Shown: piece by piece, positions 4,257-64,000 of the stretch
Layout of the letters: every line of letters begins with the position of its first letter
Position numbering within the stretch: position 1 is the first letter of the stretch
Assembly: GCA_030272155.1 (NCBI GenBank)
Contig: CP126199.1
Coordinates: 1,674,001-1,738,000 of the forward strand
Reading direction: 5' to 3'
DNA: 64,000 bases
Source of the DNA: Tetradesmus obliquus
Taxonomy: Eukaryota; Chlorophyta; Chlorophyceae; Sphaeropleales; Scenedesmaceae
The notes under the pieces: model-generated
What the model saw: the letters and a program-made list of their open reading frames with translations, nothing else
Databases searched by the model: none
Told to the model about the DNA's origin: nothing
Program-made: the position numbers and the translations under genes

Positions 4257-7072
4257 ATGGGCAGGCTAGCCCTGCTGCTAGCTATATGTGCTGTATGCGT
4301 AGCTCAATCAGCCACAGCGCATTTGAATGAACAGACGAGAGATTTGAGGCGGCTGCAAGAGGAGCCAACTGCCAAGCAGCCGGCATTTGATACCCCAGCA
4401 GAACAGGTGTCACCCGAACCACAGCTGTCACCAGCAGCTGAAAAGCTGACACTGCACCAGCCAGACAACAACGTGTCTGAAACAGCAGGGAAACCAGCAG
4501 CAGATGTATCAGCCCCAGCGCCTATCTTTGCAGCAGGCGGTGTTGCAGCGCCGCCTGCTGCCGGCGACCCAGCAGCAGCAGCAGCAGACGTGGCAGCTGC
4601 TGCAGCACTGCTGCTGCAGGCAGCCTCAGCCATCCCCACAGAAGCACCAGCAGCAGCTGCTGTTGCTGCTGCAGCCGCAGCAGACCCGGCTCCTGCAGAA
4701 GGCTGGCGCCGCTGCAGCGCTCGAGAAGGCAGCAGCGGCAAGCGCGCTGCGGTCGAGCGGCAACTCAAGCGCCTCATTGTATCACGCGCTGCACGCGCCA
4801 GCGCTGCTGCTGCTGCTGCTGGAGAGGCCGTCACCGCTGAGGCTGCTGCTGCTGCTGCCAGGACAAGCAGGCGGCAGGCTCCTGCAGGGCGTGTGATCCC
4901 TGTGTACTTCCACATTGTCACATTTGCTGGCCAGGGGGGCGTGTACATGTACCAGATTGACAGCCAGATGGCGGTGAGCGATGATGCGCAGCATGCAGAT
5001 GCAGATGCGCAGCATGCACATGCAGATGCAGATGCAGCATGCAGACAGATGCGCAGCATGCAGATGCAGATGCAGCATGCAGACAGATGCGCAGCATGCC
5101 GATGCAGGTGCAGATGCGCAGCATGCCGATGCAGATGCAGATGCAGATGCAGCATGCAGACAGATGCAGCATGCAGATGCAGGTGCGCAGCATGCAGATG
5201 CAGATGCGCAGCATGCAGACAGATGTGCAGCATGCAGATGCAGATGCGCAGCATGCAGACAGATGTGCAGCATGCAGATGCAGATGCGCAGCATGCAGAC
5301 AGATGTGCAGCATGCAGATGCAGATGTGCAGCATGCAGACAGATGCGCAGCATGCAGGTGCAGATGCGCAGCATGCATGTGCAGATGCGCAGCATGCAGA
5401 TGCAGATGCTTTGCATGCGGTTGCATTGTACGCCATAGCTCCCTCTGCTTCATCCCAGCAAACGCCAAGAAAAGCAACTCCTGCGTGTGTTTCATGCCTC
5501 TCTTGCTACACTCTGATTACTGCACCATCAAGACTCCTTCATCAACACACATCCGCACTGCCGCTGCGCCCGCCACAGGTTTTGAACTCAGCGTTCAACA
5601 GGCACGGCTTCACCTTCACCCTTGCTGGCGCGCAAACATACCGCGCAGCGTCCCAGTCCCTCTACAACGCAGGCCCCGGCAGTGCGGCGGAATTTGAAAT
5701 CAAGCGACAGCTGCGCATGGGGGGTGCAACAGACCTCAACATCTTTACATGGGCTCCAGGCGATGGCCTTTTGGGCTGGGCAACATTCCCATGGGATTAT
5801 AAGATTGGAAGTCCAAGTTCTGCGCTTGATGGGGTGGTGGTGCGCACTGCAACACTGCCTGGAGGCACTGCAAGGGACTACAATCTTGGCAACACTGTGG
5901 TGCATGAGGTGCGTGCGGGTGGATGACAGTGCAGTTCAGACAGCCATCAGCGTCAGGGGCCAGCCGCGCAGTGCGACTTGCACAATTGTGTGCATGCATA
6001 TAGGTGCAGCAGCTACACTGTTAGCAGATCAACAGCTGTGCGATGAAGGCATTGCTGCCAGGACCGGTGCATAAACTGGGTGCGGCACAGCGGTACAAAG
6101 TGACGCGGTTGCAGACGCAGCTCAACTAACACCTGCAGCTAAATGTGCACGGTATGCGGCTACAATCACAGCACTCATTTTGCTTGTGAAATTGCTAGTG
6201 CAAGCCTCCTATTCCCACACGTTATCACAAGCGAATCACCCAACTGCCGCCTGCTGTCATGCTATCTGCAGGTTGGCCACTGGCTAGGTGAGTTCAGCAG
6301 TTGCAGCGTTGATCGTGCTTCCGTGCATGGTGATGCAGCCGTTGCCATCCAGCAGAACTGACTTATTACACGAGGTCCAACTGCAGTATTCCTTTGAGAC
6401 ACTGCTGCTTCATTTCATTTGACCTGTGTCAACCGGCAGCCGCTTAGCGCCTATGAGTATCATTCCAACGCCCACAGCCGTTGCCAGCGCTCTGTTCCAA
6501 ATCATATTCTTCCAGTCAACCACTGTGTGCTTGTTGACATGCTTCCGCACCTGCAGGGCTCTATCACACCTTCACAAATGGCTGCAACTGGGGCGGTGAT
6601 CAGATTGACGACACACCTGCAGAGGCATCAGCAGCATCTGGGTGCCCGCTGTGGCGGGACAGCTGCCCAGGGGACGGCCGGAGGGACCCGGTGCAGAATT
6701 ACATGGACTACTCCTTTGACAGGTACGGCTTGATTGGTGACGGGATGAGGTGGTAAGGGATGGCCGGCGGGCCTGGTGCAGAACTACATGGCTTACTCCT
6801 TTGACATGTGGGTAGGGGCATAAACAGGACACACACCCAGACCATCATCATGTTAATGTATTGGTGTTTTATTGATCAACAAGTGAACATTATGCAAATG
6901 CATGGATGAAGACACTCGAGGCACATGACGAACCCTTAGGGTGACGTTTGGTGTGCTGCCTTGCGCATGCCTGCCTGCTTCTTGCACCTGCAGCTGCATG
7001 AACCAGTTCACTGCTGGCCAGCGCGCACGCATGTGGAGCGCGTGGGACGCCTACCGCCAAGAGAAGCGGTGA
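4257..7072 (+). CDS. Secreted M43 (pappalysin-like) zinc metalloprotease, copy 1
   Basis: Exons 4257-4973, 5579-5908, 6272-6287, 6557-6722 and 6994-7072 give 435 aa. The N-terminus has a signal peptide (MGRLALLLAICAVCVAQSA), then an Ala/Gln-rich pro-region with RR and KR basic sites to about residue 200, then the catalytic domain. The zinc motif HEVGHWLGLYH is at residues 348-358 (HExxHxxGxxH). GDQIDDTPAE, paired cysteines (GCP, DSCP) and a Met-turn NYMDYSFD follow, all typical of MEROPS M43B (pappalysin/ulilysin). The last exon ends with SCMNQFTAGQRARM. It probably acts outside the plasma membrane; the substrate is unknown, and cell-wall or matrix turnover is only a guess. The second zinc histidine lies in a 16-nt micro-exon. 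Intron 1 is an expanded minisatellite, and intron 4 holds a decayed copy of the exon 4 end. The gene is paralogous to the next one downstream. Confidence 0.88.
4983..5415 (+). repeat. Minisatellite filling intron 1 of protease copy 1
   Basis: About 430 bp of imperfect units built from GCAGAT and GCGCAGCATGCAGACAGAT blocks, about 21-33 bp per higher-order unit. It starts about 10 bases after the exon 1 donor. It lacks stop codons in several frames on both strands, which creates long spurious reading frames of the MQMRSMQ, ADAQHAD and CRCRCAACR types. The frame of exon 1 stays open through the whole repeat to 5438. Confidence 0.9.
6757..6808 (+). repeat. Decayed copy of the exon 4 3' end (protease copy 1)
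   Basis: This intron 4 segment repeats, with mismatches, the end of exon 4 (about 6668-6722) that encodes the Met-turn region. In the copy NYMDYSFD becomes a YMAYSFD-like reading, followed by tgtggg instead of the gtacgg donor. Confidence 0.8.
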
Positions 7073-7220
7073 ATGCTGCTGCTCCTGCTGCGCACACAAG
7101 GTCCTCGGGCACAGCGACATCCTGCTTTGCTGGAGGTCTAAGGTCAAACCTCAGGGCGTTGCGGTGCACAGCTGCACATTAAGGCCAGACAGATGTGCAG
7201 CCGGACACACGAGCAGCTTT

Positions 7221-7256
<36 letters not shown>

Positions 7257-13582: not shown

Positions 13583-13718
13583 CATGTCACGTGACAATCA
13601 GGCGGGGTGTGCAGGACATGTCACATGACAATCAGGCGGGGTGTGCAGGACATGTCACGTGACAATCAGGCGGGGTGTGCAGGACATGTCACGTGACAAT
13701 CAGGCGGGGTGTGCAGGA
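13583..13718 (+). repeat. Four tandem 34-bp repeats centred on a CACGTG palindrome
   Basis: Four head-to-tail copies, nearly identical; copy 2 has CACATG. Three carry the perfect 12-bp palindrome TGTCACGTGACA, which contains a CACGTG G-box/E-box. Each unit ends with AATCAGGCGGGGTGTGCAGGA. A fifth copy is truncated at about 13719. Confidence 0.95.
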
Positions 13719-14194
13719 CATGTGTTTGTTCCTCCACATGCATTGCTGGCAACAGCACAGCGCAGCCAGCGTTGAGTCACTGTGCTCAGTTCGAAAGCGT
13801 GTTCTCAGGCTGATATGAGCTCGTGCTGAACGAGTGTTGCCGCAAAACATGCGGCAGGGTTGATGCCCTCAGGCTGTGGGACCTCCCACAATGTGTATGT
13901 CAACATTGCGGTTTGACAGGTCTACCTTTCCCACAGGGAGCATTACAGTGCTCTTTGTTCAGCAATAAGGCGCAATCGGAATGTGGGCATGTCATGTTAA
14001 CATTGTGGCCATGACTCATCTGAGCATGCATGTTACTGCAGTACCTGTTGTGAGCCAGTCTACCAGTGCCACTAAGAGCACTACAGCACTCTACGTGTAG
14101 CAATCAGGCGCAATGCGGACTCCGCATCCTGCATTCAGATGCAGGCATGTTTTTTGGTGGTCATGACTCATCTAAGTATGCATGGTTTGATGGT

Positions 14195-15646: not shown

Positions 15647-15678
<32 letters not shown>

Positions 15679-16666: not shown

Positions 16667-19600
16667 ATGCAGTTTCAGGAGGTTGCTGCCCTGGTCATCT
16701 TCTGTGCAGTGATAGCTTTGGTAGTGCTGCTGGTGCTGGTGCCCGTCTCGGTGCAGCTGCCGGCATGGAGGAGGGGCTCATCAGGCTTGAAACTTCCTCT
16801 GCACTATTCTGGAGTGCCGGTGGTCGGCGTCCTGGCTATGCTGGCCACTGGCAGTTTGAATGGCAGGACACTTGCTGCTGGCATCGTTGGCGACGCAACG
16901 CTGAAGCCATATGGCATCCTCATCCTGTTCATGGCCTTGGCTTACATCTCGACAAGCCTTGACATGACTGGCTGCTTCGGCTGGCTGGTGAGACAGCAGG
17001 CCGGGCCTGGTCTGAAATTTGACCTGTATCAGGAACAGCCAAGGCCATATGTCAGCATGCAGTGGTAGCTGCAATTCAATTGGTCAAGGGGCATCAGTTG
17101 TGTTGGTTTGACCACCAACGCTTCCCATTGACTGGCAGTTGACCTGCGCACTGCTTGCAGGCACTGCACATCACGCGGCGCAGCAAAGGCAACGGCAGGC
17201 TGCTGTTCCTGCTCTACTTTGCAGTCAGCAGCATCATCACAGTCTTCACCAGCAACGACATAGCCATCATGACCCTCACGGTGAGTCCAAGCCTGGCTGG
17301 AACTCAGCAACAGCAGCAGCAGCAACGGCTTGAGTAGCAGTTGTTTTACATCCTGCCAGAAGTGCCTGGATTGGCAGGCTAGCACCTAGCTGGTGCTGTG
17401 CTGCTGTCCTGCAAGCGCCACACATTTGAAATCCAGCACTGTGTTGCTGCACTGATGCTGATCAGGTGATGCCCTGCAACAAGCCAAGCAGCTGCAGCAG
17501 GATTGACTTGGCTATGACACGGCCGAGTAGCCTCCTTGCAGCAGTGTCTGTCTGCCTTTTCCTGCAGCTGACAGGGCTGCCTGCTGCTGCTGCTCTGCTG
17601 CTTCTCCCGCCTATCACAGCCCATCATCTACTACTTCTCCGCAGCAACAGGCACGGATGCAGTGCCATACCTCACAGCCATGTTCACAGCAGCCAACATC
17701 TGGTCCATGCTGCTCTTTGTCGGTGAGTGCCCAGCTGGCGACAGCGCTGCAGACTGCTGAGAACAGACATTTGAATCGCACACAGCAGCTGCGAGGCGCT
17801 CAAATGGGGCACCTGCACCTCCTGGGGGCACTATAGAGACCCAGCAGCACATTTTAGAGCAAGGCTTATGTATAGGAACTAACAAGTTGCTCATGTCGTG
17901 CAGCGCATGAGGGATTGCGTGCGTCCGTGCAGCCAGTAAATGACATGTGGAAATGGGGGTCCCGCTGCCGCACTGCTTGCAGGAAACCCCACCAACATCA
18001 TCGTGGCTGTGGCCTACCAGATGAGCTTTGGGGATTACAGCAGGTGGATGGCGCTGCCAACCCTTGGTGCGTTGCAGCAGAAGGTCTGCACTCAGCTTTG
18101 CTTGTATAGTGCAGCCCTGCTGTGTTTACTTGCAGCGATGGGCGGCATCAGCGGTAGAATTGCTGCAGCTGGCATGCGGCTGGTTATTGTGCCGATGAGC
18201 TTTTGTCCCAACAGCTAATTCACTGTCGTGCATATGTCCGTGTTCTGCCTTGCTGTTGTTGCATCGCCCCCCCCCCCCCCCCCCCCAGGTGCCGGTTTGG
18301 GTTGCCTAGCAGTGCTGCTGCTCGTGCACGCGCGCCGCATGCCAAAGCACCTAGCCCTACCAGACCTGCAGCCTGCGCTACTGCTGCTGGATAAGCCAGG
18401 CGCAGCTTTTGGCAGTTTTAATATCTTGGGTTGCTTGGGGCTGCTTGCTGCAGCTCCATCACTAGGATGGGAGCTCTGGCCTGTTACACTGGTGTGTGCC
18501 GGTCTGCATGCAGTGTACAACTTTGTAGCGTATGTAGTATTGAAGGGCCGCTGGTGCAGGCAGCTGCAGGCACCGCAACCGCAGCCTCTGGATGTTCCTG
18601 CAGCAGAGGCAGCTGCAGCCAGACAGTCGCAGCCAGCGCATGTAGCAGCAGTAGCTGCTTCAACAGCAGCAGCAGCAGCAGGCACAAGCGAGCCTGCCGC
18701 TAGAGCTCTACGGGCTGTGCCTGACCTACCAGCAGTGCACGGACCTGATGCCAGCAGCAGCTTGCAGGAGCGCGGTGGTGCAGCAGCAGATGAGGAATGC
18801 AGCCACAGTTTGCCGGCACAGCAGGATGTATCCAGTGTTGAGCTGACAGGCGTTGCTGCACAGCAGCAGCAGCAGCAGCTGGAGCAGCAGCAGCAAGAGC
18901 AGCAGCTGTCACAACACAGCCAGCAGGACAGCCTGGTTCAGTTACCTGCTGGGAAAGCAGAGCAGCTGCGGCGGCAGGACACAGCAGGTGCATCAGAAGT
19001 TGACGTACAAGTCGGCATTTGTGATGGCAGCAGCAGCACTGGTGGCGGTGCAAAGCCTGCATTTGCAGACACAGCAGCAGCAGCAGGGGCGGCTGCTGGT
19101 GCTGCAGGATTGCTGCAGGATTTGCGGGCTCCTAGCTTTGGCAGGGTGCTGCGGGCGCTGCCATATGAGGTAGGTGTGAGGCTTGCTGGCTGCAGTTGGT
19201 TGTCAAGTCTTGTTGCAGCGTGAGCGTCGCTTGACAAACATGTTGCGTGACACGCTGCCAAGGTGCATGGTCAGCTGCAGGTGAGCGAAGCGACTTTCTT
19301 TGAATCATCTGATTGGCAATAAGAAGTCTTGTCAGTGGCACTCACCAAGCTGTGAGCTGCAGCTGTACCTGTGCTGGGCTTGCGCACTTGGTACCTTGTC
19401 CTGCAGGTGGTGTGCAACTGCAGCAGCGCATGTTCTGAACTCACACCATGTGTACCCTTTGTTCCTGCAGGTCGTGCCGTTCGTGCTGGGCATGTTCGTC
19501 CTGGTGGAGGGCTCATGTGTTTGCTGTACAACTTCAGCAGCGACTGTGTTGAAGTCAATACAACCTTTGTACCTTCCCTGCAGGTGGTGCCAATTGTGCT

Positions 19601-20598
19601 GGGCATGTTCATCCTGGTGCAGGCTGACACGATTGCTGTTCAACTGGTGAAGCTTCTTTGTTGAACTCAAACCCTTTGTACCTTACGTGTGCCTTTCATG
19701 CAGGTTGTGCCGTTTGTGCTGGGCATGTTCATTCTGGTGGAGGGCCTGAATGCAACAGGCTGGGTGGACCGGCTGGCATGGTGGCTGGGCAGCGGTGTGC
19801 GTGGCAGCGTGTGGGCGGCGCTGTTTGCTGTTGGGTCCTTCAGCGTGCTGCTGGCTAATCTGGCAAACAACCAGGTGGGTGCTGGGGCTGTGTGCGTGGG
19901 GGTGCCAGCGTTGCAGCCTTGGCTAAGCGTGCGGCATGAGCAACATGCGCCTGGTGTGCAGTGCAGTCTTGAATTGTGGGGTGTTGCAGTAGGTCCAGCA
20001 GCTGTGCTTGCGTGCATGCTGTCAACAGCAGATGCGTTCGCCCAGGTGCAGCCTTCCCTGCACATCAACTGTCGGCATTTCGGCACATAACCATTTGTGC
20101 TGCTTGGCATGCCCTCACAAAGCCCCTCCCCGTCACTGATATGTGTCAGCGCTGCACAGGTTATTTGACTCTTTGCTTGCGCCGCTCTGTCTGCTGCAGC
20201 CGATGACGATCCTTATGACCAGGGTCTGTATGAGCCCTGTGTTTGCACAGGCAGCAGCAGCGGCAGCAGCTGGCGCTCCAGCTGCTGGCGGCCTCATCAG
20301 CAGCGGCAGCAGCAGCAACGCTGACCTGTCAAGCCCCACCAGCATGGCTAGCATGGCAGATGGCAGCAGCAGGGTGCCGATTGGCGCCGCTTTTGCTGTC
20401 GTCATCGCTTCAAACGTTGCCGCCAACTTCACGGTGATGGGTGCGCTTGCAGGAATCATGTTTGTGAACATCCTGCAGCGCAAGGGACTTCGCACTGTGA
20501 ACTATGCAACATTCAGCAGGCTGATGTTGCCGTCTGGCCTGGTGAGCGCTGTGCTGGCGCTGGCTATCCTAGGTGCTGAGCTGGTGCTGTGGCAATAG
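16667..20598 (+). CDS. ArsB/NhaD-type (ion transporter superfamily) permease
   Basis: Exons 16667-16987, 17161-17280, 17620-17722, 17983-18066, 18289-19169, 19704-19874 and 20200-20598 give 692 aa. There are many hydrophobic segments. Family-like signatures are FTSNDIAIMTLTPIIYYFS, the half-site GNPTNIIVAVAYQMSFGDYS, and LANNQPMTILMTRV in the second half. The fold matches the ArsB/NhaD/citrate-permease superfamily; arsenite or Na+ export are possibilities, and the substrate cannot be read from sequence. A roughly 250-residue Gln/Ala/Ser-rich, probably cytosolic insertion (within about 18540-19120) sits between the two membrane halves, unlike bacterial ArsB. The acceptor of exon 5 follows a run of 20 C. 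Intron 5 carries two extra copies of the start of exon 6. A reductase-like CDC25/ACR2 gene lies 6.5 kb downstream. Confidence 0.8.
18267..18288 (+). other. Homopolymer 3' splice site: C20 then AG
   Basis: Twenty consecutive C followed directly by AG at the acceptor of permease exon 5. The complementary G20 could form a quadruplex. Confidence 0.85.
19400..19745 (+). repeat. Upstream copies of the permease exon 6 start
   Basis: Copies at about 19471-19512 and 19584-19622 precede the intact exon at 19704. Each has a tgcag acceptor and encodes VVPFVLGMF(V/I)LVEG-like residues before lapsing into intron-like sequence. Periods are about 113 and 120 bp. The preceding intron motif (cctttgtacctt) is repeated too. 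A weaker fourth trace lies at about 19400-19425. Confidence 0.9.
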
Positions 20599-21612: not shown

Positions 21613-24600
21613 ATGCAGATATTTAGTCATCGGCAAATAGCGAGCAGGACGCGCGTGACTTGTCCTGGGCCCCGCATTGCACCACACAAAGTTCAGCACA
21701 GCAGGCTCGCACCCCCAGCACGCGCTGACAGCGGCAAGGAGCCCAGTGAAAAGGAGCTACAAGAAAAGTTTTTCAGCGCACCCAACAAGCAGCCAGGACA
21801 GCCAGCCCCCGGCAGCAGCAAGCAGGAGCAGCAGCAGCAGGGCAACCTCCTGGAAAATCCGCTAGTGAACCCCTACGCGCTGGGACGCCAAGCTCGGCGC
21901 GCGTTTGACGATGTGTGGGAGCAGCTGAGTTCAATTGCCCAGCCCACGAAGAGTTATGTCTTCGATGAGGTGCTGGACCCCAGCCTGCAATTGGAGGAGG
22001 ACCCAACTGCTGCAGGAACTAAGGTGCTGGTGGTTGGAGCCACAGGCAGGGTGGGCCGCATCCTTATCCGCAAGCTGCTGCTGCGTGGCTACAAAGTGTG
22101 TGCGCTAATCAGGCGCCGCGAGGGCATCCGCGAGACCGCAGCTGAGATTGAGGGGCTGCCAAGCGCTGTTGAGATCATCAACGGCGATGTGGGAGAACTC
22201 AAGGACTGCCAAAGGGCAGTGAAAGGTGTTAACAAGGTGCGTAGTATTATAGTTGAAACGCATGCACAGGAAGCAGCATGTTGCAGCTGTTGCAGAGTGC
22301 TGGCATGTCAGGCTGCGGTCCTGACAAGCCAAGCTGCCTGTGCATCTGTTGTGATGCATCATCCGCTGCATGAGTTGTTGGCTTCTTTCATCATGCAGGC
22401 CTATGTAAGAGGTTGAGCATGCAACAGCTGCACTTGAGCAGATAACATGTGTTGTGTAGCGTTGCCAGCAGTGGTTTACACAGCCATAGGTGATGTCTCA
22501 GCTATGCTTGTAGTTTGCTTGCACGGCTCCCTTGCCACAGCACTACACTGTTCAATGGGCGTGTGTTTCTGCTACCTGGCCTCTTTTCCTACGAGCTAAC
22601 AACCTCATCACATTCTCTGCCTGCTTATTTTGCATCTCATTCCTCTGCCTGCCCGGCCAGATCATCTACTGCGCAGCAGCAAAGACCGCGTTCACAGCTG
22701 ACCTGCTGCGAGTCGAGGAGCGGGGAGTGGCCCACATGGCAGCAGCGATGCAGGATGAGCTGTTCAGGCGGGCACGCGCAGAGGGCTCCAAGCACAGCCC
22801 TCACGCAAAGAAGGAGGTCGCAGATTTTGGCAAGATTTACCACCAGCTGCGCTGGGACATCGGCTTTGTCGGTGTGCAGGTGGGGCCCGGTGACATGCAG
22901 CTGCATGTTTGTGTGGGGTTTGGGAGCCAAACACTCACGACCATGAACTGCAGGCTGCTTGGTACACAGTGCTCTGTCTGATGTGTCTGTCATCCTGCAA
23001 GGAAGTGTTCAGCACCAGCAAGCAGACTTGCTGTTGCTCCCAGCTGTAACCCCCTATGCCCTGCTGCTGTCTGGGATGTGCCGCCATTGCTGGGTGTTTG
23101 CTGCTTCATCTCCACAGGCTGCTTCATCGCAACAGGGAGAGGGCAGCTGCAGACATATTCAGCTTCTTTGTCCCCTGAAACCACATGTGCCTTTCCAATG
23201 CTTGTGCTGAGCCTCTGTCATGCTTGGTTTTGCTTTGCAGGGAGAGGATGGCAGCATCAGCAGGGACAGGGAGCGCGCCAACCTGGCAGCAGCAGAGATC
23301 AGCGAAGGCAACAACCTGGTGTTCACGGGCGCGCTGTTCACGCGCGGCGCGTTTGCAGAAGTTGGAGCGGAGCTCAACCCGCTGCTGCCGGGTGGGGAGT
23401 CACGACTTGCAGGCACGGAGGGCATCACTATGCGGGTGAAGACGGAGGGGCACACGTATGCGTGCGTGCTGCGCACAGGTGGGATGCTGATGCAGAGTTT
23501 TGGGTGGTGTGTGGTGTTGGAAAGCAGAGGAGGCAGCACTTGCAGGAGAGCAGGGTTTGGCGTGTGGTTGTAACAGCGGCAAGGATGGGCTTTGTGTCTT
23601 GCTGACAGCTGCTGCTGCACTTGCCGATTCATGCTGCTGATGGTACCCTACTGCTGCATCATAAAGTCACATGCATACACGAAGTGCCTGCTGCTGCTGT
23701 TGTGTCATCCATTGTTTGATTTCAACCCTGCACAGCTGCATGCTCTCTGCTGCCTGACAATCCCTTGCACCGCGCTGCAACCGCCTCACCACCTTGCAAC
23801 CACAGCCGAGGGTCACACCTATTCGGCGCGCTTCCCCACACGCACCGCGCGCTACAGCACCGTGCGCCTGCCTTGGGTACTGTTCAGGCCAGAAGCAGAG
23901 GGCCTGCCTCCCTTTGACCCCGCAGCAGTAAAAAGCATCAGCCTGCGCTATGAGCTGCGCAAGCCAGTGCCGGCAGCAACAGCAGCAGCAGCAGCGGCCG
24001 CAGCAGCAGCAGCGCCAGCAGCGCCGCTCGTGCCTGCAGGAGCCAGGCTGCCGACTGCGCCGACGGGTGGTGCCGCGCCGTCGGCTGCTCTGCAGCTGCA
24101 GCGGCAGCGGCTGCTGGCCCAGCAGGCTGCAGCTAACACAAAGTTTGAGCGGTTCAAGATGGAGGTGGACTGGATCAAGGCCCTGCCATCAGGTGCGAGA
24201 GCTGCAGCTTGTAATCCTGCAAGTTCCTGCAAGTTCCAAAGCTGTTCAAGGCAGTGCTGGTAGAGGCCAGCTGTGAGGCGGACGCGACAGACCCAGCACA
24301 TCCCCGAGGCAAAGCATTTTATGTGTTCGATGATTGCTTCTGGGTTCACACAGCTGCTGTGACCTGGGGTCGGGCGTTGACTAGAACGGATAAGTGCGCA
24401 GCCACTGCCACACCTCTTCTGTTGGAAACCTTCTGTTGACCCTTTGGAGTGCTCTTTGACCGGTGCTGCTGCTGCTGCTTCAGGTGTGGAGCCAGAGTTC
24501 ATCTTGGTGTCCTGCAGTGGAGCAGCGCGGCCAGGGTTAGATGCCACAGATGTCTCGCGCATCGTTGCTGCTAAGCGCCGCGGAGAGGATGCGCTGCGTG

Positions 24601-25523
24601 CAACAGGCCTGGGCTACACTGTGATGCGGCCAGGACCTCTTGTGGTGAGTTCCTAGTTCTGTTGTTTGTGTTGCAACAGTTGAGTCTTCAGGTTTGATCA
24701 TGCGCTCTGTGCAACAGGCGTGGTCTACACTGTGATACGGCCAGGACCTCTTGTGTTGAGCTACTAGTGCGTCTTGTTCTTTCGGCTGTGGTCTTGTATG
24801 TGCAGAAGAGTCTGCCTATCACGGTGCTTGTGTCTTGTTGTCGTGATGCGGCCAGTGACCAGCGTGTGCTTCTTTTCTTCTGTTATTTTGCAGCAGCCAA
24901 GTTGTGGAGGTTTCATCGTGTCCTGCCTCTTACAGTACAGTTTGGGTTGGGGTGGGCTGCTGATGTATGTTGGTTGACGCCTGGTCAACGCTGGTCAAGG
25001 TTTGACTTTGTTCCGTTGACTTTTGCTGCTTGCAGGACGAGCCTGGAGGCTACAAGGCGCTGGTGTTTGACCAGGGTGACCGCGTGGGCCAGAGTGTGAG
25101 CGCAGCTGATGTGGCTGACATCTGCTTGCGGGCGCTGCATGAGCCTGAGGTGAGCAAAATTCTTGTCATATGTTACAATTTGAAAGGGTGCAAGTGAGCA
25201 GTATGTATGTGAGATGCTGCGCTTGTACGATACAAACCAAGAACAGGGGTGCTACCGTGGCTGTCTGTGCGAGCTGCGGTAGAAGCCATAGGTGCCAGCT
25301 ACAACAGCAAGTTGGTGGTGTGTGCGTGAGGCTGTGACTTGCAGGAAGCCTTGTTTTGGCTTTGCTGCCGACCGGTTGGCTGCCGCAACATCAACCTCTT
25401 GCAGATGTCATCACGTAATGCTTGAGATAGGTGTACGTTCTGAACCAGTGGCTGCCTCGCTGGTGGCTGCTGCTGATGTTCCTGCGTTCTCACACTATGC
25501 ACGCCCGCACCTGCTGCTCACCC

Positions 25524-36002: not shown

Positions 36003-36064
<62 letters not shown>

Positions 36065-39657: not shown

Positions 39658-39691
<34 letters not shown>

Positions 39692-40135: not shown

Positions 40136-42141
40136 GCTGCAGCGCACAACGAGCCTTCGTGGCAGGAGCGATGTGGCAGCAGCAGCGGACAACAATAGAT
40201 TGTCGAAAACTGGGGCAAAGGCGTTTGCTGTGTGGTGGCGTGATCTTGCAGCGCTGTCGCATGGCAATGCAGGGTACTGTGCTGCGTCTCTGTTTACTGT
40301 GACCATACTGCCGGTGCAGTAGTGACCCGGCGGCGACAGCAGGCTGATGACTACACAAGGCAGCTGATGGGTTGTTACGGGGTGTTTGGGGCTGACGGCA
40401 GGGGCGAATGTTGGTTGGGTGGTTGCAATAGCGGGACGGCTGCTGTTGCCTTCCTGCAGTGAGCTTCATTGCCAGTTGGTTGCTGGCCCAACAGTAAGTA
40501 GTGTGCTGTGTTTATCTTGCCTAGCTGTATGCAAGGCCACACTTTTTTCAGCTGGAGTGCAAACAGTAGTATGTGGCAGTGCATGCATTCGAGGGAAGGT
40601 GGCTGCAATGCAGCCACATGAGCGTCAGCAGCTTTTTTTTCTGCCAGCCAGCTCTTCAGTACAGTGACTGAGGCTTGAGGATGCGCATTGCGTCACACAC
40701 ACACACACGGCTTTGCGCAGCATTTAAACCCAATCATGGAGTAGTGCAAACTACTATCTGGTGGAAAGGCTCGTACTAGCTCTTGCTGTGACTTGCTGCA
40801 TGGAAGCATTGCGTGTTTGTGGAGCTGCAGCCGATTGCTGCTGCTGGTGGAGCTCTGATGTGACCAGTTGTGGTGGCGCTGCCGGTGGGCAAGAGGCAGC
40901 AGTGTGTGCATTTTGCGACGGGCAAGAGGCAGCAGTGTGTGCCTTTGCTCAGCAGCATAGCTTAGAGCTCAGACTGCGCAGTATGGTGTGCCCGGTTCAT
41001 TGAGTGGGTGTGCCGCTGGATAGAATCTTAGAGCTCAATTTCATTGCCGGCTGTGGTGCACTGCAGTGGCACTTTGTTGGTGACACACACAGCACCATAA
41101 TCATGCTTGGTATCCAGCTTGCTGCTCTGGCAGTTGGCTGTCACAGAGCGTTCTGTGCTGTGCAAGCATGCCTATCTTATGGCTGCATCTCCATCAGAGT
41201 CTGGACACTCATCTCTCTGTTGCAGCCTTGCATGGCAAAAGAGCGTATTGTGTTCTGCAGTCTGCTTGAACCCAACTGAGCCACACGCGGATCTTGTTGG
41301 TCATGTCTTCAAGGGCCTGCATTGCACACTACATCGTATCCAACGCACAGCTGGTGATATGCGTGGTCCTGCAGAATGCTTGAGCAGCAGTGACGTTCAG
41401 TTGATGCAACTGGCGGGCGTGCTGCTACAACTGACACGCCTGCTGCTGCCAAGCAGGTTATGGCAGACTGGTTAATAGTTTTATAGCTGTGCTCTTGCAT
41501 ATGGTACAACTGCATGTCGCTGCCCTGCAGCCAGACTGGGCACGACCATTGCATTCAAGATCATGTTGATGTCATGGCATGCATGTTGCATGACAAAACA
41601 GCAGTATTATTGGTCAGGCACAACCTGTGCTGAGTAGGTGCCCATGCTGCTCCTAGATTTTGGTGTAACACGTTTGAATGTTGGCGTCGTTGACACATTC
41701 TAACTTCACGCGCGCATGTTAACTACCTGATACGAGCCGCTCGTGACGAACTTCCCGCAGGAACTGATGAGCACTCAACATGAACGGAGGCTATCTCTGA
41801 AATATAGAGGGCGACTTGACTGCCGGTTACTGCGACGTTACTAATGCGGAATCGGCGAATGCTTTGTCCAATGCGGGCTACGCTGCTCCTTGACAGACCC
41901 TAAGCCCCAGCTGCATGATGAGCTGTTTTCTCTTACTGCTGCTTCGTATGGGCGCAATGGTACTACACATCACGATCGTGTTTTTCCAGGCTCTAGCGCA
42001 CCCAATGTAGCTTCCAGATACCACCGCTGTGCTGCTGGTGCTGCGTGCACCTCACAGTTGCAACTGCTGCTGCTGCTACTGCTTCTAGTAGGACTTCCTC
42101 ACAGCACCAGCAACAAGACCGCGCAACAACAGCCGCAAAAC
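40136..42141. other. Intergenic between CHR and PM20D1-like genes
   Basis: No gene seen. It contains a short GGGCAAGAGGCAGCAGTGTGTG duplication at about 40887-40942, a (CA)n run near 40697, and a TGTAA at about 41662. The AT-richer part after 41660 may be the downstream promoter. Confidence 0.5.
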
Positions 42142-45100
42142 ATGAACTTACAATCAACGTTAAGTTTGCTGTTGGTTGTTTCACTTCTGAGCCTGGCTGC
42201 GCGCGCTGACAGCACACCAGCTGGCACCACAACAGCAGACTCTCTCTTCCAGCCATGCCCCTTTCCAGCCTTTGACTCAGCACTGCAACGCTTCAGCAAG
42301 GTTTTAACCTTCAAAACCATCAGCAGCGCTCACACAGACAACATTGCACTGCATCCTCAGGAGTTCCCAGCCCTTTGGTGAGCTGCAGTGATGTCTTCAG
42401 CAGTGGCAGTTGTGCAGCAGCTGCTAAAAGGCAGTGCTGCAGAAATGCAGAGCAGACAGGTGCTAACAGCAGCTGTTGGTGCTGCTGATGCGTGTTTGGG
42501 TGTTGCACTGATCTTGCTGTGCTTGTGGTGCTGTTTTTGAGCTGCTGCAGGGAGTGGGCAGCTGCAGAGTATACAGAAGTGTTTGAGCAGCTGCAAGTTG
42601 AACAGGTAAGAGCTTGCCCAGGCGATGCCTAGGGTTGAAGGATATATACACTTAGCAAAAGCATATCGCAACATAATGCGTACTGGTGGTGTGCATGGGA
42701 TGGGGTTACATTCATGTCACGCAGTACTGTACTGGATTGCCTTTGACACAGCAACATCTGTCGTACAGCATGCTGTGCAACACTCCTTGAATGAGCAGCT
42801 TGCAAGCCGTTGGGCCACCATACACCAACAGCATGGGCCTTGCCAGTGGTAGCAAGGGACAGCCCTTTAGTATGCGGTCTTTGAAAGAGAGTGAAGCCTT
42901 GTGAAAGTGTAAAAGTAAAAGTGTAAAAGTAAAAGTGTTATGTGCCTGGTACTACCGTAGTATGGCAGCAACCCCAGCCCTAATGCTGCGCCTGGCATGC
43001 ATGTGGCGCTTTCACAACGGCACCACCATGCTGACAAGTGTCAAAAGTCCGTACCATGCGCTGCTGCTGCTGCGGCGGCTGCTGCTGCTGGCTGCTTGCA
43101 GGTTGGGGCTGGTGGCTTGAGCCGGCTGGTCACGTGGCAGGGCAGTGACCCCAGCCTGCTGCCAGTGCTGTTTGTGAGCCACGTGGATGTGGTGCCAGTC
43201 ACAGAGGAGACGCTAAAGGTGTGAGATGCCACGCTGCTGCTGTTATGTTGTTTGTGTGTCTCTGGTGTTTGCTTGTGCGCCCTGCTGCCGGTGCTGTTTG
43301 TGAGCCACTGGACGTGGTGCCGGTCACGAGGAGACACTGAAGGTGAGGGGCTGCATGCTGAGGCCTTTGCTATAGACCTGCTGCTGCAACTGCTGCTGCT
43401 GCTGCCCGTGTTGTTTGTGAGCCACGTGGACGTGGTGCCAGTCACAGAGGAGACATTGAAGGTGTGAGACAAGTAAAACTGCATGCTGAAGCTCTGATCA
43501 AGGCTCTAGAGCAAAATATCTTCTGCTGCTGCTGCTGCCTGGATGTCCTGCATTTCCAAAAGACCTTGCTATTACATGCCACGCTGCTGCTGTTATGTTT
43601 GGATATGTTTCCGGTTTCTGTCGTCTTAAACGGCCTTCGCTGCTGCATGCCACACAATTAAACCAAATTGCAATGCGTGTCCTACTCGCCACACATGCTG
43701 CTGACCGGGTGTTGCTGTCTTTTGCAGGACTGGACGCATCCCCCCTTCAGTGGTGCTGTCGAGGATGGCTACGTGTGGGGCAGGGGAGCCATGGACATCA
43801 AGGTGACACTGGCACTGTTATTTCATATGTTATATAACATGTTAAAGTGTTAGCTGTATTGTTATGACATCAATTACCTACACGTTATCGACAGATGCTT
43901 GCCCAGCAGCTGGTGCCATTCATTTTGTTGCGTCATCCTCCAGCCTGCAGGGTCGCTTGGGTCGCCATGCTGTGCAGCAGTGGATGGAAAAGGGGCTGCA
44001 CCAGTGCTGCATTTAGACACGCTTTCAACCCAGTGCAACACCCATGATGCAGCCTGGCACTGCCTGCGGAGGCTCTGCAGCACATCGGCACTTCCGATCA
44101 CACTCACTGTGCCATGCCGCTGCTGCCGTGCACCTGACACATGCATCCTTGTGCCACAGGGTGTGGCAATAGCTCTGCTGGAAGCCGCAACTGCGCTGCT
44201 GCGGGATGGCTTCAGGCCCGCCGCACGCTGCTGATTGCCGTATGTGTCGTGCATGCCACTACTGCTGTGTACCTTACACATTCACCATTGATCTGCAGGG
44301 CACAGCAATAGCTCTGCTGGAAGCCGCAACCGCACTGCTGCGGGAAGGCTTTGAGCCACCACCACTGCTGCTGTGTACCTCACACACGCACCCTTGCGCC
44401 GCAGGGCGTAGCGATAGCGCTGCTGGAAGCCTCGAACTGCACTGCTGCGGGAAGGCTTCAGGCCCGGCAGGATGCTGCTGATTGCCGTATGTGTTGTGCA
44501 TGCCACTACTGCTGTGTACCTTACACATTCACCATTGACCTGCAGGGCACAGCGATAGCTCTGCTGGAAGCCACAACCGCGCTGCTGCGGCAAGGTCTGA
44601 AGTCCCGCAGGACGCTGCTGATTGCTATATGCGTCGTGCATGTCACTACTGCTGTGTACCTTACACATTCACCGTTGACCTGCAGGGCGCAGCGATAGCT
44701 CTTTTGGAGGCTGCAACTGCGCTGCTGCGGGAGGGCTTCAAGCCCCGCCGCACGCTGCTGATTGCACTGGGGCATGATGAGGAGGTGGGGGGTGCCAACG
44801 GCGCGGGGCAGATGGCTGCGCTGCTCGCTGCAAGAGGAGTGAAGCTAGCCATGGTGTGGGATGAGGGCAGGTGAGGCGGTGCAGGCAGCTGTCTACCACC
44901 CCACCCCACCCCCACCCAACCCGCATAAGTTGTTCACATCGCGAAAAGCTGTGGGGCACGGTAGGCTTATATCTCTAGAGGCACTACTTGCTGGGGCATG
45001 ATGAGGAGGTCGGGGGCGCAAAAGGCGCGGGGCAGATGGCTGCGCTGCTTGCTGCGCGTGGAGTGAAGCTGGCTATGGTGTGGGATGAGGGCAGGTGAGG

Positions 45101-46018
45101 CGGTGTGTTGTAACGCCAGCAGCAGCAGCAGCAGCAGCAGCACTGCAGTAACACAGAGCCGTCAAAGGCAGAGATCCAGCGGGTTGCTTACTTGTGCCGA
45201 TGTAACCGCCCGCACTGCCTGCTGCTGCCGCATCCCTGCAGCCCAATCATTGTTGGCGGCCTGCTGCCATCCTTGGACGCCCCAGTCGCCCTGGTGGCGA
45301 CAGCCGAAAAGACCTACCAGTCGGTCAAAGTAACGATACATTCGCCCGGCGGCCACAGCAGCATGCCGGCAACAGACGGCAGCAGCATGGCAGCTCGCTT
45401 GGGCCGGCTGCTGCTGCGCATTGCCACTGTGCATCCGCCACTCAAGCTGGTACCGCCAACCAGCCACTTCATACAAGGGCTTGCAGGCATTGCACCAGTA
45501 TGGCTGCAGCCGCTGCTGCTTGCAGTAGAGCATCTGGCTCCGCTGCGCTGGTTGTTTGTGCGGCTGATGGCTGCAGCTGGCGGCGATGTTGCTGCGATGG
45601 TGCGGGCGACGGCTGCTGTCACGCATGTGCAGGCTGGCGTCGCCGGCAATGTCATGCCTCAGGTGAGATCAGTAATAACTGTTGCAATGGTAACTCATTC
45701 GGCACACTGCACAACAGCAAACTGGCTGGACGCTGTTCATACGACAGGTGCAAGGTATCGCTTGTGTCAGTGCAGCACCTGCAGGTCACAGCTATCAACT
45801 CATGCTATGCTCCCCTACTTCTGTGTACACGGCAGTGCAGCGGACACCTTGCAATTAGCTGCGCGCCTGCAGCACGAACATGGCCGCTGTGCAAGTATCT
45901 GCTTGCTGCGGAGCCAACAGGTTGCTAAGCAACTGTGATGCATGGCTATCCATGCAAGCTGGCTAGCCATACACGCTCAGTGCTGACATACCATGCCTCT
46001 GATGCACTCCCCTGCTGC

Positions 46019-47110: not shown

Positions 47111-47530
47111 CTAATGTTTCAAATCGGACGACACCAACCGCGCGCACTCATCACTGTTACACTGAAGGTCAGAGCAGTCAACATGCTCCTAGCAAGGGCA
47201 TCGCCATCTGGTGTTCAAACAAATTGCTGACAAACAGAGTCCATACGACAGCATCAACACCAGAGTTTTCAGCAACTGAACTAAACCATCCGCAAGCGAA
47301 CATACCACTACATGCTCTTGCCCAAGTGAGAGCCCTGCAGCTGCACTGCAGCGTAGGTCAGATCTCAGCAGCAGCCAGTGCACAGTTGCACGTCAAGTTC
47401 AACTTGGCAATATGCCATGCATCATACAGCCATGCCCGCAAGTTGCAAGCCGAGCTTAGCAGCTCAAACAGGCAGTGCTCCACCAGTCCAGCATCTTGTA
47501 AGATGCTGTCAACTCACACACAAACACTGT

Positions 47531-47606
47531 TGTGCCACGGCCCACAAGTTGTGCCACGGCCCACAAGTTGTGCCACGGCCCACAAGTTGTGCCACGGCCC
47601 ACAAGT
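47531..47606 (+). repeat. 19-bp tandem repeat, four perfect copies
   Basis: TGTGCCACGGCCCACAAGT repeated at 47531, 47550, 47569 and 47588 (last base varies). Confidence 0.97.
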
Positions 47607-47996
47607 GGTGCAATGCACAGACATGAGATGCAAGCTTCACCACAAGATGAAGTCAATGCCACACGTTGCGGTGCAGCGGGCGATGCTGCCCAGAGCTGTA
47701 GAGGTTTGAAAGTCATTTTTGTGATGCAAATGCAATGAGTGTCAGGCAGCATCTCAGCTGCAACTGCAATGAGTGTCAGCCAGTGTCTCAGCTGCAAGAA
47801 GTCCCTGCTCAACTTCGTTGAACGAAATGACAGCAAGACATGTTGGTGTCTTGCATGCCTGAAGCATGCTGCAGTAACCAAACTGTACACGCTGTCCCAC
47901 AATTGTTCGAAATGTAACAATCCCACATGCGTGCCGGGCACTTGGCAGTGCTGCGGACAGTAAGTATGATACAATCCAGTCAAAGACCACGCTGCT

Positions 47997-51176: not shown

Positions 51177-52115
51177 GTTGAGCTGCGGCTGTCACTAGAG
51201 GAGCTGTATAAGGGAGCTACTAAGAAGCTCAAGGTGTCGAGGCAGGTGTTTGAGGCTGCTACTGGGCGGGCTGTGCAGCAGGCTGCGCAGGAGGTGCTCG
51301 AGGTGGCAGTGAAGCCAGGCTGGAAGGAAGGTGAGGCATATGATGATACATATTGATGATGGTCATGTGATTTCAGGGCAGCAGTGCATTGTAAGCTGGT
51401 ATAGGCACGCATTGGCATGTGTTGTTTGCTAGCCAGTGGTGTGAAAAGCCTGCCTTTGCTTGTGGCCAGCAGCAGCTGCTTGAAAACGTTATGCATGTGC
51501 CTGTGTGCTAGGGCCAGCGTGCATGCCTTGTAGCTTCGATGCCCAGCAGCACTGAACTTTAACAAATGAAAGCCAGCAGGGTTAGCTGGCGTGCGTTTCT
51601 GACACAATGCGAGCTACAGCAGTGCTTGGTTTGTGTGCCAGTGCTGCTGTGCTTGGCCGCGCCCGCCTGTGCTGCCGCCTGACTCGTATCCTGCTTATGT
51701 TCCTTGTTTTTCTTCTGCGTTTCCTGCAGGCACGCGCATCACCTTTGCAGGAAAGGGCGATGAGCTGGCACCCGGCGGGCCTTCTGCAGACCTCGTGTTC
51801 ATAGTGAAGCAGAAGCCCCACGCGAAGTTTACACGCGACGGCAACGACCTCACCACGGCTGTCACATTACCGTTAGTAATAGCCCTAACCGGTGGTTCAG
51901 TGACAGTACCGCTGCTGGATGGCCGCAGCATTGTAGTGCCTGTTGTGGCACCGGTCACTCCAGGCAGTACAAAAGTGGTGGCTGGGGAGGGCATGCCGAT
52001 TAGTAAGAAGCCTGGGACGAAGGGTGATCTTCATGTGAAGTTTGATGTGAACATGCGTGTGAAGTTGAGCCAGCAGCAGAAGGAGCAGCTGCGCAGCATT
52101 CTGCCAGAACAGTAA
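49952..52115 (+). CDS. Type II HSP40 (DNAJB/Sis1-like) co-chaperone
   Basis: Exons 49952-50165, 50342-50551, 50866-51330 and 51730-52115 give 424 aa. It has an N-terminal J domain, [16 protein letters not shown]..., with the HPD motif in [11 protein letters not shown] long Gly/Ser/Gln-rich G/F-like region follows, including [11 protein letters not shown] and RVFFS; there is no cysteine-rich zinc domain. Two C-terminal beta-sandwich domains follow ([51 protein letters not shown]). This order defines the DNAJB1/Sis1 class, which hands substrates to cytosolic or nuclear HSP70 and triggers its ATPase. The central region is stretched by CAG-encoded Gln. It is paired head-to-head with a BAG-domain gene. 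A nearly intact copy of its last 66 codons plus stop follows 261 bp downstream. Confidence 0.95.
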
Positions 52116-52162
52116 GGTGCTGTTAATAACAGCCCCAGCAAGCGGTACCATCAACAGTGCAG

Positions 52163-52376
52163 CTGGATATTTACCATGGATGGCCGCAGCATTGTAGTGC
52201 CTGTAGTGGCACCTGTCACTCCAGGCAGTACAAAAGTGGTGGCTGGGGAGGGTATGCCAATTGGTAAGAAGCCTGGGACCAAGGGTGATCTTCGCGTGAA
52301 GTTTGATGTGAATTTGAATGTGAAGTTGAGCCAGCAGCAGAAGGAGCAGCTGCGCGGCATTCTGCCAGCACAGTGA
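52163..52376 (+). repeat. Tandem copy of the DNAJB 3' coding end, offset 261 bp
   Basis: From GATGGCCGCAGC onward the sequence repeats 51902-52115. It stays open to its own TGA at 52374-52376 and encodes 66 residues differing at a handful of positions (e.g. SKK to GKK, NMRV to NLNV, SILPEQ to GILPAQ). It has no J domain and probably lies in the 3'UTR. Confidence 0.94.
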
Positions 52377-52547
52377 TGTGCTGCAAGGGGTTGTGCATGA
52401 TGTGGCTGGGGAACAACTGATGAACAGCATATCTTGCAGGAGGCCTGTGTTATGGTTATTGGAACATGCTGCTGTTGACGGCGGAACATGCTGGTGTTGA
52501 CAATGGCTGCTGGGTCTGGCAGGTGAAAGGCAGCAGTTTGTGTGCGC

Positions 52548-54486: not shown

Positions 54487-54560
54487 GCAGCTGCAGCACA
54501 GAGGCGCTGGCAGCCGGCAGCTGCAGCACAGAGGCGCTGGCAGCCGGCAGCTGCAGCACA
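54487..54560 (+). repeat. 30-bp tandem repeat, about 2.5 copies
   Basis: Unit starts GCAGCTGCAGCACAGAGGCG; copies begin at 54487, 54517 and 54547 (partial). Confidence 0.95.
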
Positions 54561-56791: not shown

Positions 56792-56843
56792 GCAGCGGCA
56801 GCTGCTGGACTCTTCAGTAGCTGCCACAGCACAACAAAGCTGT

Positions 56844-57745
56844 TCAAAAGTCTGCCAGGCCCAGCGCCTGCAGCTGACCCCACCACTGCTGCAGCTGCGA
56901 GTCTAGCAGCTGCCGCCGCTGCTGCAGCGATTGCTGCTCCCTGCTATGCAGCAGGTCCTGTGCATTGCCGCCTATAGCGCATCCAAAGCAGCAGCCCTCT
57001 GCGTCACCTGATTCTTCTGCTGCTGCTGCTGCTGCTTTCGGCTCTGCATCTGGTGCCTGCTGGTCCTGGGCGTCCAGCAGCTGCTGCTGCTGCAGCTGCT
57101 TGTGGCGCTGCCGCTGGTGGTGCAGCTTGGCTGCTGACGCAGCAATCGCTCCAGTCGCAGGCAGGAAGGGGTAAGACGCCACGATACTGCGCAAGGGCAG
57201 AGCATATGGCAATTGACAATTGGGTGATTGGGTAATTGGGTAATCAAGCAAATGGCAGTTGGGTGAGAGGCACGATGCTGCGCAAGGGCGGAGCATATGG
57301 CCAGCAGCAGGCGGCAGCAGTCGAGTCATTAGCGTGCAGTGGAAAGTTTGCAAGCAACTGCAGCATGTGAAACGCTGATGCATCCCGCTCAGCAGCCTTG
57401 CTGTGCTGCAAACTCCTAGACTGTGGCGACCGCACGCAGGCAGAGTGGCTACTGCACGCACTCCACCGGCAGTGTTGAAAGGTTATGTGTATGCAGGTCA
57501 ATCATTGCAAGCATAATGCAACATAATGAGCAGCCAAGCCTCCCTCACCACTTTGCAAGCTGCAGGCGCGTGAGCGTGTTACAGTTGAAGACCAGCAGCA
57601 GCATGCCGTGCAGGGGCAGCCGCCCCACGTAGCGCTGCAGCAGACTTTCCGCTGCTGGCGGTGCGAGGCTATCATCAACTGCCGCGGCAGCCGACACATC
57701 AGATGCCTCCGCTGTTAGGCCATCGCCGCTGCTGGCATCGCTTTG

Positions 57746-57786
<41 letters not shown>

Positions 57787-58552
57787 ACAGCGAAGGGGCA
57801 TTGCTGCCGTCGCCGCTGCTGCTGTTGCTCTTTGCAGTGGCGCCGCGCGAGCCGCCTGCTTCAGCAGCAGCAGCAGCAGCAGCAGCGCCGCGTTCTGCCT
57901 GCGCTGCGAGCACCACAGTGCTGGGGCAGGCTGCGTTGCGTGCCAGCTGCCCTCCCTGTGACATGACTGCCTCGTCAAGCCTTCCTATCTCCTCCAAGAC
58001 AGCTGCAAAGTGCTGCGCCTGCTGCGGGGTGAGCTGCATGCGTCGCACCACGCGGTCATGGTGGCCCTGCAGGCACAGTGATTTCAATTTCGAGTATGCT
58101 TTGAACATGCTTCAATTTGAATTTGAATTTGATTGCCGCACCATGCGGTCATGGTGGCCTTCCAGGCACAGGGGTTTTCAACTCTGGGATTCAATACGAC
58201 TTGTGTACCAAATTTGAATTGGAGATCGTACATGCATAGGTAAAATAGGTCGCTGCCACCAGCCATGAGTGCTGCCATGTGCGCGAGTTGCACCTTGACT
58301 GAATGGTTCACACCTCAAGCGGCGCCATGCAGGAAGCAGTCTAGCACACTACGGGCCGCCACAACATACAACATGACACCATGCACACATACCTCTGGCA
58401 CAGCACATGGCAGCTGCGTTGTGTGGTTGATGGTGCATGCCATGTAGACAGGCACCGGGTGCAGAATCAGCGCCAGCGTTGACAGCGTCACCCACTCATC
58501 AACCAACAGCTCCAGCTGCTGCATGTGGCTCAGCGGCTCGCTGCTGCTGCTG

Positions 58553-58597
<45 letters not shown>

Positions 58598-63533: not shown

Positions 63534-63573
<40 letters not shown>

Positions 63574-63920
63574 GCCACTGGCGAAAGGCACCTCAGCGCA
63601 GAACTGGGGCAGCAGCCAGGCCTTGCACAGCAGCATGCGAGCATTCGCAGTCGAATCAAGATTACAGCAATAGTTCTAAATCATATACTTACGTGTACGC
63701 TGACCATGTCAGGCAGCTGCATAGGATTCCACATTGGCAGCAGCAGCAGCAGCAGTAGGACAGCCGCCGCTATGTCATGATGACATCTCTTACGTGTTGT
63801 AACAACCCACTTGGTTTGATCACTGTCAAGTCAATGCTGCCTGCCGCTGCAGCGTACAACTTTGACCACCCGGATGCTTTCGAAAATGAGGCGTTGCTCA
63901 AGTGCCTGGCAAACCTCTCG
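62707..63920 (+). CDS. UCK: Uridine/cytidine kinase, N-terminal part (runs off the window)
   Basis: Exons 62707-62776, 62996-63092, 63354-63397 and 63853-63920, then donor gtgagc; later exons lie outside the window. The 93 codons begin MSDTELGCLGSF. PFIIGIAGGTASGKTTV carries the P-loop GGTASGKT at residues 27-34. HQDSFYRPLTPEEIAN supplies the catalytic Asp of the DSFYR motif, and NFDHPDAF is the substrate-binding signature of uridine kinases. The enzyme phosphorylates uridine and cytidine in pyrimidine salvage; plant relatives are often fused to a UPRT domain, which cannot be judged here. Intron 3 holds long CAG and GCA tracts. Confidence 0.9.
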
Positions 63921-63957
63921 GTGAGCAGCAGCAGCAGCAGCAACAGCAGCGTCAGCG

Positions 63958-64000
63958 TGACGATGAGGCGCTGCTTAAGTGCCTGGCAGACCTCTTGGTG
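63958..64000 (+). repeat. Downstream copy of the UCK exon 4 end
   Basis: ATGAGGCGCTGCTTAAGTGC and onward repeats 63886-63922 (coding NEALLKCLANLS plus donor), about 73 bp downstream; it runs into the window end. Confidence 0.85.

Follow-up and report, generated by a model that had tools for sequence, protein, structure and literature searches.

In tandem exon duplication with mutually exclusive splicing, whole exons are copied together with both splice sites, and intragenic minisatellites are arrays of head-to-tail units, unequal in copy number and made up of mosaic copies. The available text of two papers deals with the former (PMC9013439, PMC9741552), that of a third with intron gain by tandem genomic duplication (PMC3443670, citing Hellsten 2011 and Gao and Lynch 2009), and short tandem duplications from break repair are presented, in the excerpted part of the source, as a general mutation class (PMC8355091). 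Here we describe exon-edge echoes in the alga Tetradesmus obliquus, seen in a window, by which we mean the whole analysed stretch of 64,000 nt (CP126199.1, 1,674,001-1,738,000; assembly of 104.66 Mb in 17 contigs). In an echo, 25-60 coding letters from the beginning or the end of an exon are repeated together with the splice site about 120 letters away in the adjoining intron. Frequent, edge-blind duplication of 100-150-bp units in T. obliquus is well supported. To the fuller reading, in which such duplication of about 120-bp units is combined with exon-limited maintenance of the copies through exchange with the live exon, filtered by selection, we give a probability of about 0.5.

On the one hand, the echoes have in common with intron gain by tandem genomic duplication, as outlined in the accessible portion of PMC3443670, that a small intragenic duplication doubles splice signals and leaves the coding sequence unharmed. 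On the other hand, in that system, according to the same portion, the duplication of an AGGT within an exon gives rise to a new intron one unit long, whereas in T. obliquus partial exon copies lie within introns, which are longer for it, and show no interior in-register splice pair. Mutually exclusive exons are likewise tandem coding copies with splice sites, in what the two papers above make available (PMC9013439, PMC9741552), but an echo holds one edge only, the second splice site is absent, and 32 of 145 echoes are frameshifted. Echo arrays are minisatellite-like in their head-to-tail units and in a copy number that varies among loci; unlike minisatellites, their units cluster at 100-150 bp, and their exonic half stays conserved as the intronic half decays. 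With the break-repair class, as far as the excerpt of PMC8355091 extends, they share short tandem duplication. Dual-specific splice sites, in the part of PMC10809524 at hand, also come with many intronic splice-like sites beyond those regularly used; unlike in that case, exons with an upstream echo are not richer in GT starts. Introners place the same sequence in many unrelated introns, whereas 41 of the 42 repeat pairs in the window are local and direct. Among the matches listed from open-licence papers, we found no account of exon-edge echoes.

The sample covers one genome, 0.3% of the assembly, and consists of the window and five more blocks of 50 kb, on contigs 1, 2, 3, 4 and 12 (314 kb together), with 20 kb on contig 7 as a hold-out; seven contigs of 5-11 Mb each were sampled in all. 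Repeats in the window were detected by Tandem Repeats Finder and self-BLAST, followed by a fuller scan for tandem arrays. Exons were predicted rather than annotated, by a home-made gene finder self-trained on the sample, which retained 317 exons (donor CAG/GTGAG, acceptor CTGCAG/G, with the slash at the splice site). The outermost 60 coding bases at each exon edge were aligned to up to 700 bp on either side, leaving out exons shorter than 70 bp or with a coding score below 4 and queries with a periodicity above 0.55. A score threshold of 18 was applied for edge-frequency counts and the hold-out, and one of 20 for most pair and substitution analyses.

In the 314 kb, acceptor edges have an echo upstream in 58/205 cases and downstream in 13/205, and donor edges have one downstream in 57/196 and upstream in 15/196, so that about 28% of the tested edges carry an echo. 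By chance, 0.9% of 4010 control alignments reach the threshold, and inverted controls gave 4/205 and 4/196. On the expected side, the hold-out yielded echoes at 1/9 acceptor and 3/8 donor edges; on the other side, at 2/9 and 0/8. The earlier note had proposed tandem duplications that cross exon edges and leave one intact exon, and had supposed them to be very common; self-BLAST, array scan and edge alignments bear out the first claim, and the edge counts agree with the second. Its expectation of abundant decoy splice sites in introns also held, with AG retained in 77/90 acceptor echoes and GT in 69/82 donor echoes. It had further read the orientation of the copies as a rule left behind by selection. 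This survives as a strong excess (58 versus 13 and 57 versus 15), but not as a trace of selection, because any tandem copy of a boundary-spanning block places 5'-edge copies upstream and 3'-edge copies downstream.

The unit has a preferred size, which, like the conservation of apparently dead copies described below, goes beyond the earlier note. The lag spectrum of shared 12-mers has two peaks, the main one at 100-150 bp and another at 220-260 bp, and neither appears in block shuffles; runs of shared 12-mers number 52 at lags in the 110s and 55 in the 120s, versus 16 and 14 after shuffling. Altogether 130 arrays in 314,000 bp cover 45,359 bp (14%). The blocks on contigs 1, 2, 3, 4 and 12 hold 18, 8, 10, 26 and 42 arrays, respectively, and the 40.6 arrays per 100 kb of the window are typical of this range (16-84 per 100 kb) rather than a mark of the local hotspot that had been suggested. 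Among predicted introns, 70/225 carry an echo, with a median length of 486 bp versus 336 bp for those without. This is a correlation only, and the difference amounts to about one unit. The available text on the published T. obliquus genome gives 107.7 Mb, a coding share of 15.7% and a mean intron of 462 bp (PMC5966456). Array density is spread fivefold among blocks; the densest, contig 12 700001-750000, has twice the density of the window. Its 3.2-kb open frame at 700197-703364, which was excluded from gene-finder training, has a translation that we take to be retroelement-like.

The chromate transporter gene of the window, identified by PF02417 and a UniRef match, shows the arrangement in full, with four arrays; all its features lie on the plus strand. 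Its spliced six-exon model (35368-39350) encodes 507 amino acids and matches A0A383W4R4_TETOB end to end with one residue different. The public protein contains no echo of its gene, and the echo-free model fits it. Exon 1 (35368-35703) comes from the spliced model that matches A0A383W4R4_TETOB; exon 2 (36067-36199), exon 3 (36565-36684), exon 4 (37251-37468) and exon 5 (37715-38212) come from the gene finder and the spliced model. The live donor edge of exon 3 is followed by two echoes at 36758-36906, one at 36758-36805 with a donor that is now GC and one at 36861-36906 with GT. The live donor edge of exon 5 has one echo at 38267-38342, at a spacing of 119, which is 97% identical over 76 bp while the remainder of the unit has diverged. 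Four acceptor-edge echoes at 38632-39131, in units of about 122 bp with eroded intronic halves and a 1-nt deletion in one of them, precede the live copy of exon 6 with its stop (39132-39350, from the spliced model and the public protein). At 39510-40186, three extra copies of the exon 6 end, stop and 3' untranslated region (3'UTR) follow at a spacing of about 261, with 87-92% identity to the first. On this gene, the gene finder called 5/6 exons exactly and miscalled three echoes as exons; its version of the last exon started 10 bp off and ended too short.

A preference of the duplication process itself for edges, which the earlier note had implied, is not supported. We called an array recent if identity reached 92% or more along 85% or more of its spacing, which leaves the chromate transporter 3'UTR array (91.8%) narrowly outside. 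Of nine such arrays, four cross a predicted exon edge versus 3.9 expected from random placement, and for these nine recent events boundary-crossing duplications are not commoner than intronic ones, the very outcome that the earlier note had named as speaking against it. Intron middles echo too: 19/118 and 18/118 of their 60-mers per side have echoes (inverted, 5), and mid-exon 60-mers have them in 9/89 and 10/89 per side. With all ages pooled, echoes are about 1.8 times as frequent at edges as in intron middles, an excess consistent with slower loss of the exonic part. An early edge excess (acceptor 24 versus 13.1, donor 26 versus 10.0) is not used as evidence of targeting, considering its mixed ages and detectability; in that count 130 arrays were classed, 68 of them without an exon, and the gene set lacked minus-strand genes that lay within merged plus-strand chains. 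Likewise, an apparent edge-specific minimum spacing of about 100 bp (0/50 edge arrays versus 14/68 exon-free arrays) disappeared with better controls and matches intron interiors, where spacings below 100 bp make up 9% of 33 echoes (found among 271 60-mers) versus 4% of 105 edge echoes (p 0.36).

The two halves of the edge copies have fared unequally. For the 172 pairs that extend to the edge, mean identity is 0.89 in the exonic part versus 0.53 over the next 40 intronic bases (random, 0.23), and the drop comes no more than about six bases from the splice site. Of 24 pairs whose exonic identity is 94% or more, many have a barely alignable intronic half and mostly matching third positions; in a few, the unit is identical throughout, intron included. 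The intronic similarity of a pair is unrelated to its exonic identity (60 pairs). Exon parts that are 95-100% alike beside eroded introns therefore indicate that the exonic part is refreshed or held independently of age. Substitutions were counted in a clean set of 145 echoes outside predicted exons, after 39 of 184 had been excluded for overlapping predicted exons; the pair tables for spacing and splice register use 136 of the 145, of which 62 are spaced below 190. Mismatches to the live exon amount to 8.2, 6.6 and 19.7% at codon positions 1, 2 and 3, and the ratio of nonsynonymous to synonymous differences per site (pN/pS) is 0.263 in the clean set and 0.260 in the full set. Between echoes, the third-position excess is 1.82-fold (confidence interval, CI, 1.47-2.27), smaller than the 2.65 of echo versus exon. 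In the 38 multi-echo groups, the replacement:silent ratio by copy is 0.22 for the exon, 0.66 for the nearest echo (0.67, CI 0.45-0.97, when intervals were computed) and 2.12 for farther echoes (values of 2.0 to 2.75), where 2.52 is neutral.

Current translation was rejected as the cause of the low pN/pS, since frameshifted echoes alone still show 0.33 (CI 0.24-0.48; 34 echoes). Deep allelic divergence behind the silent differences is unlikely, as the public chromate transporter differs at 1/507 residues (protein level). The idea that each unit equals one intron was also rejected: 206/248 predicted introns measure 200-1200 bp (gene chains were broken at introns longer than 1200 bp), and an interior splice pair in register was not found (0.02 versus 0.00-0.02 shifted above threshold, 62 pairs). 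A first apparent in-register signal came entirely from exon edges, where AG and GT adjoin anyway. Cassette exons or in-frame insertions were rejected on the inner boundaries of the echoes, where GT or AG is not in excess (12/34 and 10/28, below shifted windows), and on spacing modulo three, which takes the values 0, 1 and 2 in 39, 48 and 49 cases (n=136). Recursive splicing (AG/GT) found no support, with GT at the start of 10/52 exons that have an upstream echo versus 32/153 of those that have none.

In our preferred reading, small tandem duplications, usually of 100-150 bp, arise often, as their size and their spread over the sampled contigs show, and irrespective of exon edges, as the nine recent arrays show. 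When a unit spans a splice site, it leaves one complete exon and shifts the partial copy into the intron, from which it is spliced out, as one gene shows at the protein level. The intronic part of the unit then erodes fast, while the exonic part and the splice consensus are seen to stay near the live exon. The probable cause is that echoes keep exchanging sequence with the live exon and with one another by unequal crossover or gene conversion. Exchange would halt where intronic homology is gone, so that the copies would be renewed again and again, with selection on the live exon as the filter. For the exonic half to be kept up, echoes must either swap sequence with the live exon or be under selection themselves, and both may apply. 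Exchange is in keeping with copies that are mosaic and non-tree-like, with exonic and intronic similarity being unrelated and with the nearest echo being the most exon-like. Four-gamete conflicts occur in 22/38 site pairs versus 23.3 at random, and being as frequent as random, they indicate copies that are not tree-like.

Several points weigh against this reading. By our own derivation, simple exchange in one lineage cannot bring pN/pS below about 0.5, and the observed values are 0.26 overall and 0.225 (CI 0.18-0.28) at multi-echo edges. Some selection on the echoes is therefore needed, either direct or through their use as donors, and by a rough estimate of ours the indirect kind would be weak. 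Long conversion-like tracts were not seen, the longest identical runs being as in permuted data (P 0.66 for third positions, 0.12 for all); the two halves did not differ in this test, and only adjacent silent mismatches cluster (115 versus 87). Further, the four-gamete test draws on just 38 site pairs, the gene finder was fully checked on one gene, the chromate transporter, and the hold-out acceptor edges taken alone show no excess (1/9 upstream versus 2/9 downstream). Tentatively, intronic edge copies might be kept as exchange partners: local spares that give sequence to the exon and take it up in turn, so that selection would act on their coding sequence and splice site even though no spare is ever translated.

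The echoes may instead be plain neutral relics of random tandem duplication, in which edge copies stay detectable longer since one copy is constrained. That recent arrays ignore edges (4/9 versus 3.9) speaks for it, as does the tolerance of frameshifts: indels occur in 36/145 echoes and a net frameshift in 32/145 (14 of the 36 indel alignments were inspected), and of 43 indels, 34 are of 1 nt and two a multiple of three. Farther echoes are near-neutral in their replacement:silent ratio, and single-echo edges, at a pN/pS of 0.373 (CI 0.27-0.52), lie near the neutral bound, with the splice dinucleotide retained in 71% of 42. This bound is again our derivation: a neutrally decaying echo and an exon changing silently give a floor of about 0.5. 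However, the overall value, that of edges with two or more echoes and that of frameshifted echoes all fall below it; nearly unchanged exonic parts adjoin eroded introns, and multi-echo arrays retain the dinucleotide in 93-94% of cases. Stops, present in 4/145 echoes, cut both ways: simulations gave 16.8 with all changes on the echoes and 10.6 with 60%, and with 40% a mean of 7.0 and a minimum of 2 in 200 runs, which takes in the observed number. We consider this explanation unlikely. It is more doubtful that echoes work as alternative splice sites or exon-edge modules, in minor transcripts or splicing regulation, under direct selection. Their splice sites and amino-acid sequence are conserved, most strongly in the nearest echo and in multi-echo arrays, but this is hard to square with the net frameshifts, with a spacing that is a multiple of three in 39/136 echoes, no more than chance, and with the lack of an inner-end donor or acceptor excess, of an in-register interior splice pair and of support for recursive splicing. 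The public chromate transporter, too, lacks the echoes of its gene.

Under copying confined to exons, RNA, cDNA or a splicing-linked process would create or renew the echoes, and exonic sequence alone would be transferred. This would account for a similarity that drops only a few bases from the splice site and for exon parts up to 100% alike. Yet the splice consensus, absent from spliced RNA, is copied or retained. Some contig 1 units, at spacings of 118 and 119, are identical through the intron, and in 47% of pairs the intronic parts exceed the random 95% level and so are still weakly related; both observations suggest that echoes are born by tandem duplication of DNA. Intron-interior echoes are similarly spaced. 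We consider this process very unlikely. An assembly artefact or collapsed haplotypes is scarcely credible, given that about 20% of third codon positions differ between copies, which eroded introns separate, and that the pattern recurs on all seven sampled contigs, themselves 5-11 Mb long.

If our preferred reading is true, one duplication process shapes gene architecture across the whole alga. The alga would then be a natural system in which to follow how splicing chooses among near-identical sites of the same intron, and to measure how tandem duplications of a small, preferred size come about. Such a copy would be carried by about a third of introns (70/225), provided that the sample is typical. 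Untranslated copies with coding-like substitutions sit uneasily with the usual equation of a low pN/pS with translation, and they call for caution in exon annotation; were the copies kept as exchange partners, an untranslated copy would show a coding substitution pattern.

In the window as a whole, self-BLAST gave 42 non-simple repeat pairs above 60 bits, of which the 41 direct ones lie at most 781 bp apart; the remaining pair is inverted, 11.6 kb apart, with high three-base periodicity. The fuller scan found 26 tandem arrays, with exon-edge repeats spaced about 80-260 bp, and there are 39 echo copies at 20 predicted exon edges. Four of these 20 edges come from the chromate transporter's terminal-exon/3'UTR array, in which the prediction made copies into exons of one another, and one (44981-45094) is a copy itself called an exon. 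Gene names in the window come from the earlier note, except for the chromate transporter and an M20 peptidase, the PM20D1-like gene, which is named from the Pfam of homologues; its model is unconfirmed, the best match among public T. obliquus proteins being 46% identical. Of the genes listed in the earlier note, the protease, permease, HCF173, rhodanese, NAA60, CHR, PM20D1 and DNAJB entries stood, and UCK was not confirmed.

On the plus strand, edge alignment places a donor-edge echo of the protease-like gene exon 6557-6722 at 6757-6806. The permease exon 19704-19874 has an acceptor-edge array at 19408-19745 (unit 114), and the HCF173-like exon 24484-24644 a donor-edge echo at 24700-24778 (spacing 111). 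Two donor-edge echoes of the PM20D1-like exon 43102-43218 lie at 43285-43469, with 11 silent and 0 replacement differences and indels in one of them. The next such exon, 44686-44870, has four acceptor-edge echoes at 44108-44685 (unit about 139) and a donor-edge copy at 44991-45105 (spacing 224, 91%). In the DnaJ-like (DNAJB) gene, self-BLAST detected a copy of the last-exon end at 52177-52383, within an array at 51916-52383 (spacing 261, 92%). On the minus strand, self-BLAST and edge alignment gave two acceptor-edge echoes of the rhodanese-like exon 27112-27331 at 27503-27662. The NAA60-like exon 31376-31517 has four acceptor-edge echoes at 31576-31876 (unit 89), and exon 32408-32547 of that gene has two donor-edge echoes at 32052-32308 (unit 175) and three acceptor-edge echoes, 72-78% identical, at 32616-32909. 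A short acceptor-edge echo of exon 57549-58066 was found by edge alignment at 58137-58159.

Outside the window, a gene at contig 1 1019250-1022989, which from its sequence we take to be ClpP-like, contains several arrays, one of them made up of four near-identical 118-bp donor-edge units that include part of the intron. Within the window, a dense 21/40-bp minisatellite at 4983-5425, with about 20 copies of a GATGCGCAGCATGCAGATGCA-like unit, crosses the end of the long open frame 4251-5435. Regular short minisatellites at 13583-13723 (34-bp x4.1, 98%), 47529-47611 (19-bp x4.4, 98%) and 54487-54560 (30-bp x2.5, 100%) are probably very recent. Long CAG/CTG/GCA trinucleotide runs occur across the whole window, in both introns and reading frames.

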